Shown piece by piece: positions 45,865 through 52,738 of a DNA stretch of 64,000 nt. Source of the DNA: Plicaturopsis crispa FD-325 SS-3 (taxonomy: Eukaryota > Basidiomycota > Agaricomycetes > Amylocorticiales > Amylocorticiaceae); contig KN832559.1 in assembly GCA_000827205.1 (NCBI GenBank), positions 371,167 through 435,166 on the forward strand. Reading direction: 5' to 3'. Numbering within the stretch: position 1 is the stretch's first letter; each line of letters starts with the position of its first letter. The notes under the pieces are model-generated. The model made no database searches. It saw nothing but the letters and a program-made list of their open reading frames with translations, and was not told where the DNA came from. Made by a program: the position numbers and the translations under genes.

Positions 45865-48283
45865 TCATGATCTCGTGCCCGCGCTTGAGATATCGACCGT
45901 TAGCAGATCCTGTACAGCATAAACAATAGTTAGCGCTATCCGTCGTGTCCAAGAGTCGATGGACGCACCTTTCCGGCTTTGAATTCGTCTGCGGACGGCA
46001 TCAGTCCGAGCCTAAGCAGCTCGCTCGCCTTGCTGACGACGGGATCGTTCTGCATGCTGCGAAGCCCAACATATAGTTGAGACGGTGTATTTCACGGACT
46101 TGTTATATGAAAGACTCACGTAGCCACTGCGATTACCGTCCCTTGCTTTGCGTAATACGCAATGAACTAGACGGAAATTATCAGGTCAACGGGGGTGATG
46201 CAGGTACGACGTATGCCGACCTTGAGTTCTCCTGGATCGCCTTTGACAATGACTTCATCATATCCAATGCCAGATCCGCAATACCGTAGCTGCTGGCCCT
46301 CTGGCGCACAGTCAAGGTAAATGGTTGCACAAAGTGAAGTCAGGGAGAATATGACACGCACGAGCACTCCAAAAGACCGGCGTCTTCGCGAATTTCTGAG
46401 GAGACCTGGCAATGTTATGTCCAACCGCACGGCCGTGGTTACCCGCAACCTGTCAAACGAGCCGTGAGCAACATTCGGAATCATGCATTCAAAGAAAGAG
46501 GAAAGAGTATCTACATTCCAGTGTTCAATTCTCCTTGACTCTCCTCCGATGGGGAAGTGCGCGATATCGCCAATTGCGTATACCTTGTCTAGCCCCGGGA
46601 CACGGAAGTACTCGTCGACCTTCACTCCACCATCTTTCTCCAGCGAGAAGCCAGGGCTGGTCGAGAGGAATTCGGTTGCCGGTGATACGCCAACTCCCAG
46701 GATGACAAAGTCTGCGGGGAGCGTGGTCTCCGTTCCATCTTGCCCTTTGACGACAACGGCGGACGCAACAGAATCAGCAGCCTCGATCCTGGACACGCCG
46801 GTCTGCATGTGGAACTTCACACCCTGCGACTCGTGGTACTGATTCATGCACGCAAAGGTTAGTTGTGGGTAGCAATGTGGGTGCCAATGATAGGCAGACC
46901 TTCTTCAAACCCTTCCCAACCTCCTTGCCAAGGACAGCCTCGAACGGGAACTCTTCCATCCCGACCACATCGATCGAAGCGAGTTTACGCTTCGAGACGG
47001 CGGCAACGAGCTCCATGCTAATGAAAGAGCTGCCAATGACCACCATCCGCTTCCCCTCCTGAGCCGCTGTAGTCGCGAAGTTAATTGGTGGACATCATGA
47101 TTTCCCTGGGCGAAACTTACCAGCATCGACTTTCTTGGAATCTTCAATTCCCCTGAACGTGTATACATTGTCCGAGTCGGCGCCTGGTATGGGAAGGCGT
47201 CTTGGAGTTCCTCCTGGAGCCAGTATAAGGGTCTCATAGTTGACGAGCTCCTTCCCATTGTCCAGAGAAACCTTCTTGTTGGGGACATCAATGGAAGTGA
47301 CGGTCTAGATGCACGTTAGATAAGTACGCCCTCAAAACGGTCATTGAAACATACGGTGCCCGTGCGGAGGGTAGTGCCGTATTTGATCTTCAGGTCAGCG
47401 GCGGTGCGAAGCTCAACTTTCGAGGCGTCCGTGATGAGGGCTTTGCTCAGCTTAGTCCTATGGATGAGCGAATTATCACTACTGTGGCGATACCGATGTG
47501 TAGACGGACGAACCTGTCGATAGGTGCGTATGTTTCCTTGGAAAGGATGGTGATAGTTCCCTTATATCCGTTCTATGTCGGATTCTGGTTTGAGCGGTTT
47601 GTTCCTCTCTAGCAGTAATTCATTTACCTCGCGCAGGCTCTCTACAGCGTGGAAAGCGCCAGAACCTCCACCAACGATCACGACACCCTTTCCGGAGGCT
47701 TCGTGACCGGAGGAAAGAAGCTTCGGAGGCCTCGACATGTTTTCCTTGAGCGCGCTCGCAGGGTCGGCAGTAACATGGATTTTGCCACCGGAGATTTCTG
47801 CCTTGAACGAATGAAGCGACGTAGGTGCAGGGGCGTCCTCTACATCTGCATTTAGAATCTGTCTCGACTTAGAATAACATGGACGTACCAATGTCACCGC
47901 TGCAGACATTGAAGCAAGCTGCAATGTTGCACAGTTCATATGAGCAGTCATACACGGCTAACTTCAAATTTACCTCCGTGCCACGGGCTACCATTTCTGT
48001 CAGCGATCGTTTGAAGATAAGATCTGTAGGACTTACCAGACTACCCTCCCATCGGAGGTCAGGACGCCTTTGGCCAGGGGTGCACCATAATGCGTGCAGA
48101 ACGCGCTCGTCGCGTGCACTTTGTCTCCGAGCCTCGAGACGAGGACCTTGCCTTTGTCAAAGTCGACTTCCTTCCTGTTCAAATGTCAAAAAACGCGTGA
48201 AATAGAGTGAATATCGGGACGCCGTACATCTGGCCATCCTTGAGATCGGCCTCGTCCAGGACCGCTATAGTTTTGAATGACAT
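45865..48283 (-). CDS. AIFM3-like Rieske / pyridine nucleotide-disulfide oxidoreductase
   Basis: Start ATG 48283 (MSFKTIAVLDEADLKDGQM); last exon DLLTVDISSAGTRS, stop TGA at 45865-45867. The N-terminus is a Rieske [2Fe-2S] domain: CTHYGAPLAKG, then CPWHG encoded by a 14-nt micro-exon (47974-47987), then ACFNVCSGDIEDAPAP. The FAD/NAD domain follows: VVIVGGGSGAFHAVESLRE, TLILAPGGTPRRLP, RMVVIGSSFISMELVAAVSK, DFVILGVGVSPATEFL, VYAIGDIAHFP. A reductase C-terminal domain follows (RRIEHWNVAGNHGRAVGHNI). This order matches AIFM3/AIFL and bacterial ferredoxin-reductase relatives. It transfers electrons from NAD(P)H through FAD and the Rieske cluster; partner unknown. No clear mitochondrial presequence. 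About a dozen exons; introns lie within most domains. Confidence 0.88.
47974..47987 (-). other. 14-nt micro-exon encoding the second Rieske ligand loop
   Basis: Between a TAG acceptor (47988-47990) and a GTAAAT donor (47968-47973), CCCGTGGCACGGAG completes C-PWH-G across both junctions. It is needed to restore CxxH of the Rieske motif in the AIFM3-like gene. Confidence 0.8.
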
Positions 48284-48590: not shown

Positions 48591-50330
48591 TCAAACAAAC
48601 AGCCACTTGCCTCTCCCTTCAACCCACGCGGCAAGGTCTGAGATACTCTGCGACTCGAAATTTCCACGCAGAGGGTCGGGGGACACATCTCCTTCGGCAT
48701 CTCTGCGGGTTGACGCTTCGTTGGGAGTCTCAGGCGGTGTGACTGGACGAGGGGCAGACGGTTCGTGATGCTGGCCGTACGGGGACAGTATACCCAGGCC
48801 GCTGCCTCCCACAGAGGTGAGATACGGGTCAAACCCATCACCAGCCAGGTTCGCGACCAATTCTCGGAGTGCCGCGTCTTCAAAGTCTACACACATAACC
48901 GTGGTCAACTTTATAATTGTGAGGTTCCAGACGATCGAAACTCACTGTCAGGCACTAATGTCACTGCACATCCACCGCCTCCTGCACCGGTGAGCTTGGT
49001 GCTTAGGTTGTAAGGAGCAGACTTGGTCTTCGCCCTTATAGCCTCCAGAGCGGCGTGCGAGACGCCCAATGTAATCAAATGGGCGTGGTTCTCGTCAATC
49101 AATGCCTATACACAATGAACACTTGAAAAAACACCGTGACGAGCATAGAAAGCAACTTACGGCTATGCCAGAGAGCAGAGAATCCCGAGATAACTCGGGG
49201 TCAGCCAATGCGCGCCGAGCTTCGTCACAGATCGTTTGGATGGCATCCAGTATACCGTTCACTAGTTCTGGCTCCTGATAAAGACAAAGTTAATGCTGTA
49301 GAGACTTCCCAGAGCATTGGCACGAACCTGCGATTTCTTTAAGCCGACGCCTGCAACAAGACTCTTGGTGTCTCGAGGCACTTTGGAGTTGGTGAGCAGG
49401 AAGCGAAGCGACTTGAATCTACGGCAATGTCGATGTTAGGTCGCGCACGCCGGAGGTTAGGTAGGCAACTTACCCTTGGATGGGCTCCATGCCACTCTTC
49501 TTCCCAAAGCCAGCACGATTGTATGCCAATGCACCCCCAAAGACAGCTACGCTGTTGTCAATACCACTAGGGTTGCCATGCAAGATCTTCTCGGAAACGA
49601 ATGCCCAGCGGTTGACCTCTTCTGCGACCAGTGGCGGGATGGCACGCCGCCCGTGGTGCGAAAGGTTGACGTGGCCCGGTTCCCCTGCCCGAGGCTCACG
49701 AGAGGGGGGTGGCACCGGAGGTATAGAGATGCGCTGATGGAGAAGAAGAATCGCCGTGGCGGCGCATGTAGAGAATGACGCCGAAGACCCGAGGCCTGCG
49801 CCGACTGGCAACGTCGAGCGTGCTGTGAAGTTGAACGACGGCCGCTCGTCCCCATGCGCCAGAATCATATACATATACAAGAAGGCGACGGCAGCCACAC
49901 TTGCGTGCGCCCCAATGCCTTCAGGAAGTGCACGGGTTGTGATAGCATCGACAAGTCCCTGGTCCAGGACTTCTGGATGCTCTTCGCCTGGATCTACGGG
50001 AGTGACGACGTCCCATGGAAGGTCATCGAGGTCCCACTCGTGGTAGAAATTCCCGATGTCGGAGAAGTGCACGGATAATTTGCCGTCATGCCGGGGCGTT
50101 GTAAGACCGTAGCAGCGTAGATCGACGGACGCAGCGATAGCGGTCTAAAATGAGATGATTGGTGAGCATTAGGTGAAGATATCGCTCAAGATAGAAGAGC
50201 TCACGGTTCCATGAACAACTGCATGTTCTCCGAACAGGATGACTTTACCAGGGGCGCTAACGAACCACTCCCTATTTTCCTTCTCTCGGCGACTGAGCAA
50301 TCCCAGCCCAGCGTTATCGTTGAAAGCGAG
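48591..50330 (-). other. ERG12: Mevalonate kinase module of the fused gene
   Basis: GHMP kinase motifs in order: SAPGKVILFGEHAVVHG; after an intron AIAASVDLRCYGLTTPRHDG; then LPVGAGLGSSASFSTC (ATP-binding loop), VSEKILHGNPSGIDNSVAVFG with the catalytic Asp, and KLTGAGGGGCAVTLVPD. An insert rich in Pro and Arg sits between the ATP loop and the catalytic stretch (ISIPPVPPPSREPRAGEPGH). The C-terminal tail after SGLGILSPYGQ is Pro/Glu-rich and longer than in yeast Erg12. No ATG lies in frame within the first kinase exon. Confidence 0.88.
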
Positions 50331-51831
50331 TTTCTCTACAGCGCGGCTAATTGCGTGGCTTTCCTTGGGAGCGGAGGCGCGAACGTAGTGGTGATCGGTG
50401 CTGGCGTCGATGGTGATAGCACCTGCCTCCAACAGCGCACGCTCGAGATCTTCCAGAAGGTCGGCGGGATCCTCGATACCGACGCAGAGCCGAATGAGAT
50501 CCTCGGGGAGTCCGCGCTCCGCACGGGTGGCGGCGTCGATGGACGCATGGCTAGTAACCACACATAAAAACAGTAGTCAAATCTCATGTTTTTCGATGAA
50601 GCGAGACTGCAAACTCACGACATCACGCAGGGCATGCTGATCAACGAGTTCACACATCCGAAGCTGACACTGATTCCCCAGAGTCGCGTCGCACCCACGA
50701 CGCGCTCGCTCATCGCCTTGTCGCCGGTGGTAAAGCTCAAAACGGCACCAGGTCCGTTGGCAATCCTGTTGTGTACGTCACGGCCAGGATGGCTCTCGAG
50801 CCCAGGGTAGTGCACTTTGAACCCGAGCCCCTCGAGCATATTCGCGACGCTCATCGCGGTAGTTTGTTGGCGGTCCATGCGTATAGCGAGTGTCTTGATA
50901 CCGCGTAGGAGAAGGAAAGAATCAAAGGGTGTCAAGGCGTTGCCAATCGAGTTTATGACGAACGCCATTTGCTATAACGGCCACATTGAGAATTGACATT
51001 CGGATGGAAAGCGGATATGGGAACGAACCTGGGCAAGGTCATCCCGGTTGCAGGTAATCACGCCAGCCATGAGATCGTGGTGCCCGCTGAGGTACTTGGT
51101 AGCGCTGTCGTACACGATATCTACGCCGTGCTCCAGCGGCCGTTGGAGATAGGGACTCATCATGGTGTTGTCTACCACGATTACCGCATCCGGAGCGCGC
51201 TCCTTCACGTCTGCGCTGATTGTGGCCAGGTCGGCGATCTTGAGGAGGGGGTTTGTAGGACTCTCGAGAAGAACCATCGCCGTTTTTCCCGCCTTGATAT
51301 GCTTGTGAAGCGTCGTAGGGTCCGTAGTGTCCACATTGTGAACGACAACACCTCCGTGTGTCTTGAGGTAGTTCAAGAGACGATTGGTCCCGCCGTAGAG
51401 GTCGTCGCCGGCAATGACTTCGTCTCCCGGCTTGAGAAGGCGCAATATTACGTCCAGAGCCGCCATGCCGGACGATACGGTCATGGCATATGAAGCGGAC
51501 GATATTTTGGCGATATGGTGCTCTGGAATAGCAACGCAATCAGTCTATTCGTCTTCTGCATGGGTTCATTTGTGTATGCCGACTGCTCACCTAAATGACT
51601 CCTAGTAGGATTTCCGCTCCTGGAGTAATCGTACTCTCCTCCGACACCTTTGAAGGTCGAAGTCTGGTATATGGGCACTGAGCTGCTGCCATACTGGTCC
51701 TTTCTGGAGGGGTTCTCCACGGTCGCACAGAGCGTAGAAAAGCGGTAAGGCTGGCGCGGACGCAAAGGCGACTCTGGCTCTGGCGTCGGGAGGTCGTGGT
51801 GCGGATATGTGTCGATTTTGGGGTTAGACAT
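48591..51831 (-). CDS. Cystathionine beta-lyase fused in frame to mevalonate kinase
   Basis: One reading frame joins two enzymes from unrelated pathways. The N-terminal half (from ATG 51831) is a PLP lyase of methionine synthesis that cleaves cystathionine to homocysteine. The C-terminal half phosphorylates mevalonate in isoprenoid synthesis. The exon at about 50216-50517 carries the lyase C-terminus (HASIDAATRAERGLPEDLIR to LLEAGAIT), a linker of about 50 residues, and the kinase N-terminus (WFVSAPGKVILFGEHAVVHG). It has no stop and no in-frame ATG, so the kinase has no start of its own here. The kinase then continues through four or five exons to GRGKWLFV, stop at 48591-48593. Either this is a bifunctional protein, or the kinase starts at an unseen exon, a non-ATG codon or after cleavage. 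Both halves keep key residues. About nine exons in all. Confidence 0.75.
50420..51831 (-). other. Cystathionine beta-lyase module of the fused gene
   Basis: Exons read MSNPKIDTYPHHDLPTPEPE, QTSTFKGVGGEYDYSRSGNP, AMTVSSGMAALDVILRLLKP, GDDLYGGTNRLLNYLKTHGG, DNTMMSPYLQRPLEHGVDIV, then YDSATKYLSGH with the PLP-binding Lys. They continue with FDSFLLLRGIKTLAIRMDRQ and WGISVSFGCVNSLISMPCVM, spliced (AT|GTC + C) to SHASIDAATRAERG. The Cys/Met-metabolism PLP fold is complete. The 'SVSFG...SLISMPC' signature favours beta-lyase (STR3/metG type) over gamma-lyase, though I cannot exclude the latter. Its C-terminal helix runs on into the kinase module. Confidence 0.85.
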
Positions 51832-52059: not shown

Positions 52060-52738
52060 ATGCCTCCTAGGCGTGGAAGACCACAGCGTATGTTTCACAG
52101 TCTGAGGGATAAGGCACGATAGATGTGACACTGGATCTGAAACAGCGGCGAGACAAGCGCAAGCAAGCTCGCATCAGGCTCTCGCGCCTGAGGTCATCGC
52201 GAAGCGCACCAAACGCCATCTCGATGAGCTCGAGGTATGCATTCGTTATATGCCTGAAAATATAAGCCGTTCAACTGGATCCAGCGGTCAAATTACGCGG
52301 AACCGTCGACCTCCTTTCTTGGTGTTGACGACGACGATGACGAGGAAGGTGGCGGCAAGACGGCGAAGGGACGCGCGAGACAGACGGTATCGGACAAACG
52401 CACCGGTCAGAGGAAGAAGTCTACGACGAACATCCGCAGTGCTCTTGTATATCGCAAAAACCTAGCTACGCTCATTGAGGAATCCGTGCGTGACTCTGTA
52501 CTTTCTTTGTATGGCGCCTGAAACGACCTGGACGCGGCAGGGCATCGCGAACCTCCCACAGCATGTGCCCACATATCTAACGGCTATTGCGCCTCCCCCG
52601 CGAGAGCCCCCTCGACTTATGTGCTCCGTATGCGGGTACTGGGGCCATTACAAGTGCAAACGATGCGCCATGCCATACTGCGACCGGAACTGCGAGGGTG
52701 TACACAATGAGACTCGATGCGAAAGGAGAGTTGTGTGA
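52060..52738 (+). CDS. VPS71: HIT zinc-finger protein, ZNHIT1/Vps71-like SWR1 subunit
   Basis: The SWR1 complex swaps H2A.Z into chromatin, and this subunit helps hold the nucleosome-binding arm. Exons: MPPRRGRPQ from 52060; RRDKRKQARIRLSRLRSS-like basic sequence or its alternative frame AARQAQASSHQALAPE near 52144-52232, the latter leading to KRTKRHLDELE; then SNYAEPSTSFLGVDDDDD and KSTTNIRSALVYRKNLATLI to about 52486; and the last exon with VPTYLTAIAPPPREPPRLMC. The zinc finger is CSVCGYWGHYKCKRCAMPYC, then DRNCEGVHNETRC, matching the HIT pattern, and it ends RRVV as family members end close after the last Cys. The third-exon Asp run is typical. The exact join into the last exon is not settled. 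Confidence 0.82.

Follow-up and report, generated by a model that had tools for sequence, protein, structure and literature searches.

Does one gene of Plicaturopsis crispa encode both a cystathionine beta-lyase and a mevalonate kinase, or do two adjacent genes only appear to be joined? The original prediction placed the two enzymes in a single reading frame at 48591-51831 of the window, that is, the whole stretch of 64,000 nucleotides that was analysed. These coordinates are right, and the strand is minus.

The gene model and its two enzyme halves

According to our splice model the minus strand holds, from 51831 to 48591, one nine-exon gene for a single protein of about 921 residues, ending in a TGA stop codon. 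The gene, its exons (all taken from the splice model) and the parts of the protein are as follows.

48591..51831, minus strand: fused gene in full, lyase (cystathionine beta-lyase) plus mevalonate kinase, 921 aa from 9 exons with 8 introns
51831-51591, minus strand: exon 1
51522-51029, minus strand: exon 2
50971-50619, minus strand: exon 3
50550-50205, minus strand: exon 4, the sole exon across the junction
50144-49474, minus strand: exon 5
49418-49328, minus strand: exon 6
49274-49161, minus strand: exon 7
49105-48946, minus strand: exon 8
48886-48591, minus strand: exon 9
50415..51831, minus strand: lyase part, aa 1-408 (TIGR01329 match at aa 38-406)
50274..50414, minus strand: linker, aa 409-455 (within exon 4; no ATG, no stop)
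48783..50273, minus strand: mevalonate kinase part, aa 456-858 (PDB 1kvk match; Lys465, Ser599, Glu663, Asp674)
48594..48782, minus strand: C-terminal tail, aa 859-921, past the region aligned with the rat kinase

All eight introns are of the GT-AG type and measure 53-68 bases. Introns 2 and 6 have GTTCGT as donor, and of the eight, introns 2 and 7 show no match to a simple branch-point pattern. Where intron 6 ends is ambiguous: using 49272 in place of 49275 makes the protein one residue shorter, and the acceptor at 49268 leads to a premature stop. For intron 3 a donor at 50621 (920 aa) changes VMSHAS to VIHAS and was not adopted; the donor at 50618 is preferred because it retains MSHAS, as in 1ibj.

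Whereas PDB 1ibj and 1kvk are two separate proteins, here both are matched within one, each aligned almost end to end. The lyase half aligns with 1ibj at an E-value of 3.8e-102, and the cystathionine beta-lyase model TIGR01329 scores 533.6 bits over residues 38-406, above its curated cut-off of 487.5. Lys223 of the fusion aligns with lysine 278 of 1ibj and is presumably the PLP lysine, the role that we take Lys278 to have. Residues 459-858 align with 1kvk (E-value 4.6e-66), which we take to be the rat mevalonate kinase; its Lys13, Ser146, Glu193 and Asp204, presumably the key residues of that enzyme, align with Lys465, Ser599, Glu663 and Asp674. The Pfam domains Cys_Met_Meta_PP, GHMP_kinases_N and GHMP_kinases_C follow in this order, each above its cut-off, and the galactokinase signature stays below its own.

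The family call is less clean for the kinase. Exon by exon, the mevalonate kinase model TIGR00549 reaches 91.4 bits, under its cut-off of 163.05, which counts against a clean assignment, and in a whole-protein NCBIfam search the best 25 of 50 matches all fall on the lyase half, with no mevalonate kinase model among these 25. Compared with 1kvk, the fusion carries 17 extra residues, spread over three gaps in the middle of the kinase. The 63-residue C-terminal tail is rich in Pro, Glu and Ser and its last residues are WVEGRGKWLFV.

Two neighbouring genes were also inspected. Upstream and divergent (window 52060-52738, plus strand) lies a HIT zinc finger gene (PF04438), whose putative ATG and that of the fusion gene are separated by about 230 bases; we take it to resemble a Vps71-type SWR1 subunit. 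Downstream (window 47562-48283, minus strand) a Rieske [2Fe-2S] domain is followed by a VVIVGGGSG motif, presumably as in AIF-type reductases. Neither neighbour points to a pathway cluster.

The junction and the start of the kinase

Exon 4 contains the C-terminus of the lyase, a linker of 47 residues and the N-terminus of the kinase in one frame without a stop. Since all three share this exon, the join is independent of any splice choice at the junction, and the predicted run of the lyase exon into the kinase start is confirmed. The stretch between HASIDAATRAERG and GEHAVVHG comprises 106 codons (not about 115, as had been stated) and has neither a stop nor an ATG; going upstream, the nearest ATGs in frame encode Met358 and Met362, both within the lyase. 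The missing ATG had been taken as a sign that a separate kinase gene has no visible start. The absence itself holds, but it is unremarkable, as 1368 of 5000 base shuffles of the junction codons are ATG-free too. A stop-free stretch of this length is rarer by chance (167 of 5000). Strong evidence for the join is the presence of two almost full-length enzymes in one frame; the lack of an ATG alone is weak.

The linker itself looks coding. Its G+C content by codon position (0.62/0.45/0.64) is close to that of the remaining gene (0.62/0.46/0.64), and its codon-usage score, trained on the remaining codons of the fusion gene alone, is +9.4 bits, a value matched by none of 2000 shuffles; the two remaining forward frames come to -13.2 and -24.0. 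As a counter-sign, however, one reverse frame of the linker is also stop-free and scores +5.7.

A joined message might still be made while the kinase that works is shorter, owing to an internal promoter, alternative splicing, a start at Met358 or Met362, or proteolysis in the linker. We consider this very unlikely. For the polycistron-like or cleaved product named as an alternative in the original prediction, the sequence gives no sign. From both methionines the frame does stay open across the linker and on into the kinase. Under a strict splice rule (donors GT[AG]NG, acceptors [CT]AG, one intron of 45-100 bases), however, all seven routes to the kinase begin inside exon 3 of the lyase and pass through the normal intron 3. 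Because this donor rule misses the GTTCGT of introns 2 and 6, the search for a separate start was rerun with every GT and AG allowed (one intron, 40-150 bases). It then gave 97 in-frame routes to the kinase from 13 ATGs, and more than half of them (53) begin at ATGs 50587, 50565 or 50548, in or just past intron 3. Such an abundance is nevertheless expected by chance, and the 97 routes speak neither for nor against an unusual separate start of the kinase. Still further from plausible, and in our opinion next to excluded, is an error of sequence, assembly or splice model that fused two adjacent genes. The two basidiomycetes named in print as being without the fusion, Laccaria bicolor and Postia placenta, would fit such an error, but the junction lies in one exon, where an error must delete a stop and the ATG of the kinase yet keep the frame. 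Moreover, separate groups report an equal architecture in the publications discussed below, once from an RNA-seq assembly.

Copy number and the bifunctional reading

The copy number was studied by searching one genome of 33.2 Mb in six frames. As this was done exon by exon and the best candidates alone were scored, "only gene" here means the only one found. With this search neither a second mevalonate kinase nor a better cystathionine beta-lyase than the fusion was found among the scored candidates of the 33.2-Mb genome. All six matches of the kinase-half query are exons of the fusion gene itself. For the lyase half this holds for four out of seven matches (90-98% identity), the three others being 34-40% identical.

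Several candidates for additional copies were assigned to other families. Three other GHMP matches, each judged from one or two exons, are a homoserine kinase (C12), a diphosphomevalonate decarboxylase (C3:1602843) and a galactokinase (C15). The C-terminal exon of the latter fits galactokinase best, at 59.0 bits against 22.0 for mevalonate kinase, whereas its N-terminal exon by itself is ambiguous between galactokinase and mevalonate kinase (35.8 against 34.9 bits). A further site (C3:2294302) gives a weak TIGR00549 match of 17.7 bits. With respect to the lyase, two of the weaker matches (C12, 39-40%) have cystathionine gamma-lyases as best solved structures, and for the third (C16, 34%) the best model is O-acetylhomoserine sulfhydrylase. 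Further PF01053 matches occur on C9 and at two C1 sites (C1:598061 and C1:3220622); TIGR01329 scores C9 at 26.9 bits and C1:598061 at 29.3 bits, and C1:3220622 is absent from its matches.

Judged from the sequence, one messenger RNA that is translated into one bifunctional lyase–kinase protein is very probably the correct reading. It is the best one because two near-complete domains with their key residues lie in one frame, and because a second gene of either kind was not found in the searched genome and cases of the same architecture have been published. Laccaria bicolor and Postia placenta as exceptions, together with the kinase score under the TIGR00549 cut-off, count against it. The gene structure, the single frame, the domains and the key residues rest on the sequence; what we infer is that each half is active within the whole protein, that the fusion has a single ancient origin and that the link brings any benefit.

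In such a protein the N-terminal PLP enzyme would split cystathionine to homocysteine for methionine synthesis and the C-terminal GHMP kinase would phosphorylate mevalonate with ATP for sterol and isoprenoid synthesis, using two independent active sites. Channelling is unlikely, as the two reactions have no common intermediate. The fusion would supply both activities in a fixed proportion, and expression at a fixed ratio would be the least demanding benefit. Alternatively, the join may have been neutral and, after the kinase start was gone, irreversible. In fungi the methylation of sterols at C-24 uses up S-adenosylmethionine. A regulatory link across the pathways, by which the fusion would be kept to balance the supply of methionine and S-adenosylmethionine with sterol synthesis, is improbable; in its variants the lyase oligomer would scaffold the kinase, or one domain would sense the state of the other pathway.

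If both halves of the bifunctional protein work, the sterols and terpenoids of the fungus depend on a protein that makes homocysteine, and removing or engineering one step would therefore disturb the other. There is also a warning for annotation: a fused gene that is named for its lyase can make a genome seem to be without mevalonate kinase. For Ustilago maydis, excerpts of PMC7396576 give mevalonate kinase as the sole enzyme of the pathway that was not predicted in KEGG. Our guess is that a fusion caused this gap.

Comparison with published fusions

The lyase–kinase fusion is already known. In the available excerpts of the papers it is in print since 2012, twice in that year and again in 2013 and 2014 (PMC3342255, PMC3468542, PMC3720577, PMC4129116), which refutes the hint of novelty in the original prediction; the published surveys bear out its suspicion that the fusion may be common among these fungi. 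What we say on conservation in other fungi rests on these papers. In viral contigs no relatives were found: two stretches match a pattern, neither coding for a relative.

Liu et al. 2012 describe a "metC-MVK" fusion that begins with cystathionine beta-lyase and ends with mevalonate kinase, with a mean length of about 886 aa, in 12 basidiomycetes and not in Laccaria bicolor. It is the sole K00869 homologue and the sole gene with K01760 as best match, is missing from the other species that they checked, and shows a 16-residue insertion in the middle of the kinase in seven species; Table 5 gives the MVK gene as G_lucidum_10009892. The authors propose an origin in the ancestor of the Basidiomycota (PMC3342255, from excerpts). 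In October 2012 about 450 extra C-terminal residues, mevalonate kinase-like (30-40% identity), were independently described on the STR3 orthologue of every basidiomycete examined but Postia placenta, with a stand-alone kinase absent there; ascomycetes carry two separate, unclustered genes (excerpts of PMC3468542). The surveys disagree on the exception (Laccaria bicolor in one, Postia placenta in the other), a discrepancy that suggests gaps in annotation rather than true losses. In Pleurocybella porrigens mycelium the fusion is present as an RNA-seq unigene and therefore speaks for a joined message (PMC3720577, in part).

In their available text three of these papers (PMC3342255, PMC3720577 and PMC3468542) each leave the function of the fusion or the reason for it to further study. 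Titles and the beginnings of abstracts yielded no study on what the fused protein does, most subscription journals being outside the search, and the excerpts of a Flammulina paper (PMC7568368, with the terms in its reference list only) and a review (PMC11121823, with MVK in a figure legend only) contain nothing relevant on the fusion.

The gene described here is a further example of a known architecture, and the interest lies in why the fusion is kept. It resembles metC-MVK in its lyase-then-kinase order, in length (921 aa against an average of about 886) and in being the only mevalonate kinase found (excerpts of PMC3342255). Compared by description only, the printed 16-residue insertion stands against 17 residues over three gaps here, and the roughly 450 extra residues of the fused STR3 orthologues against 513 after residue 408 (excerpts of PMC3468542). 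GME67_g of Lignosus rhinocerotis, likewise compared by description, has 918 aa, an equal domain order and is the sole mevalonate kinase match there (excerpts of PMC4129116); the 921 aa of the Plicaturopsis protein fit both published lengths.
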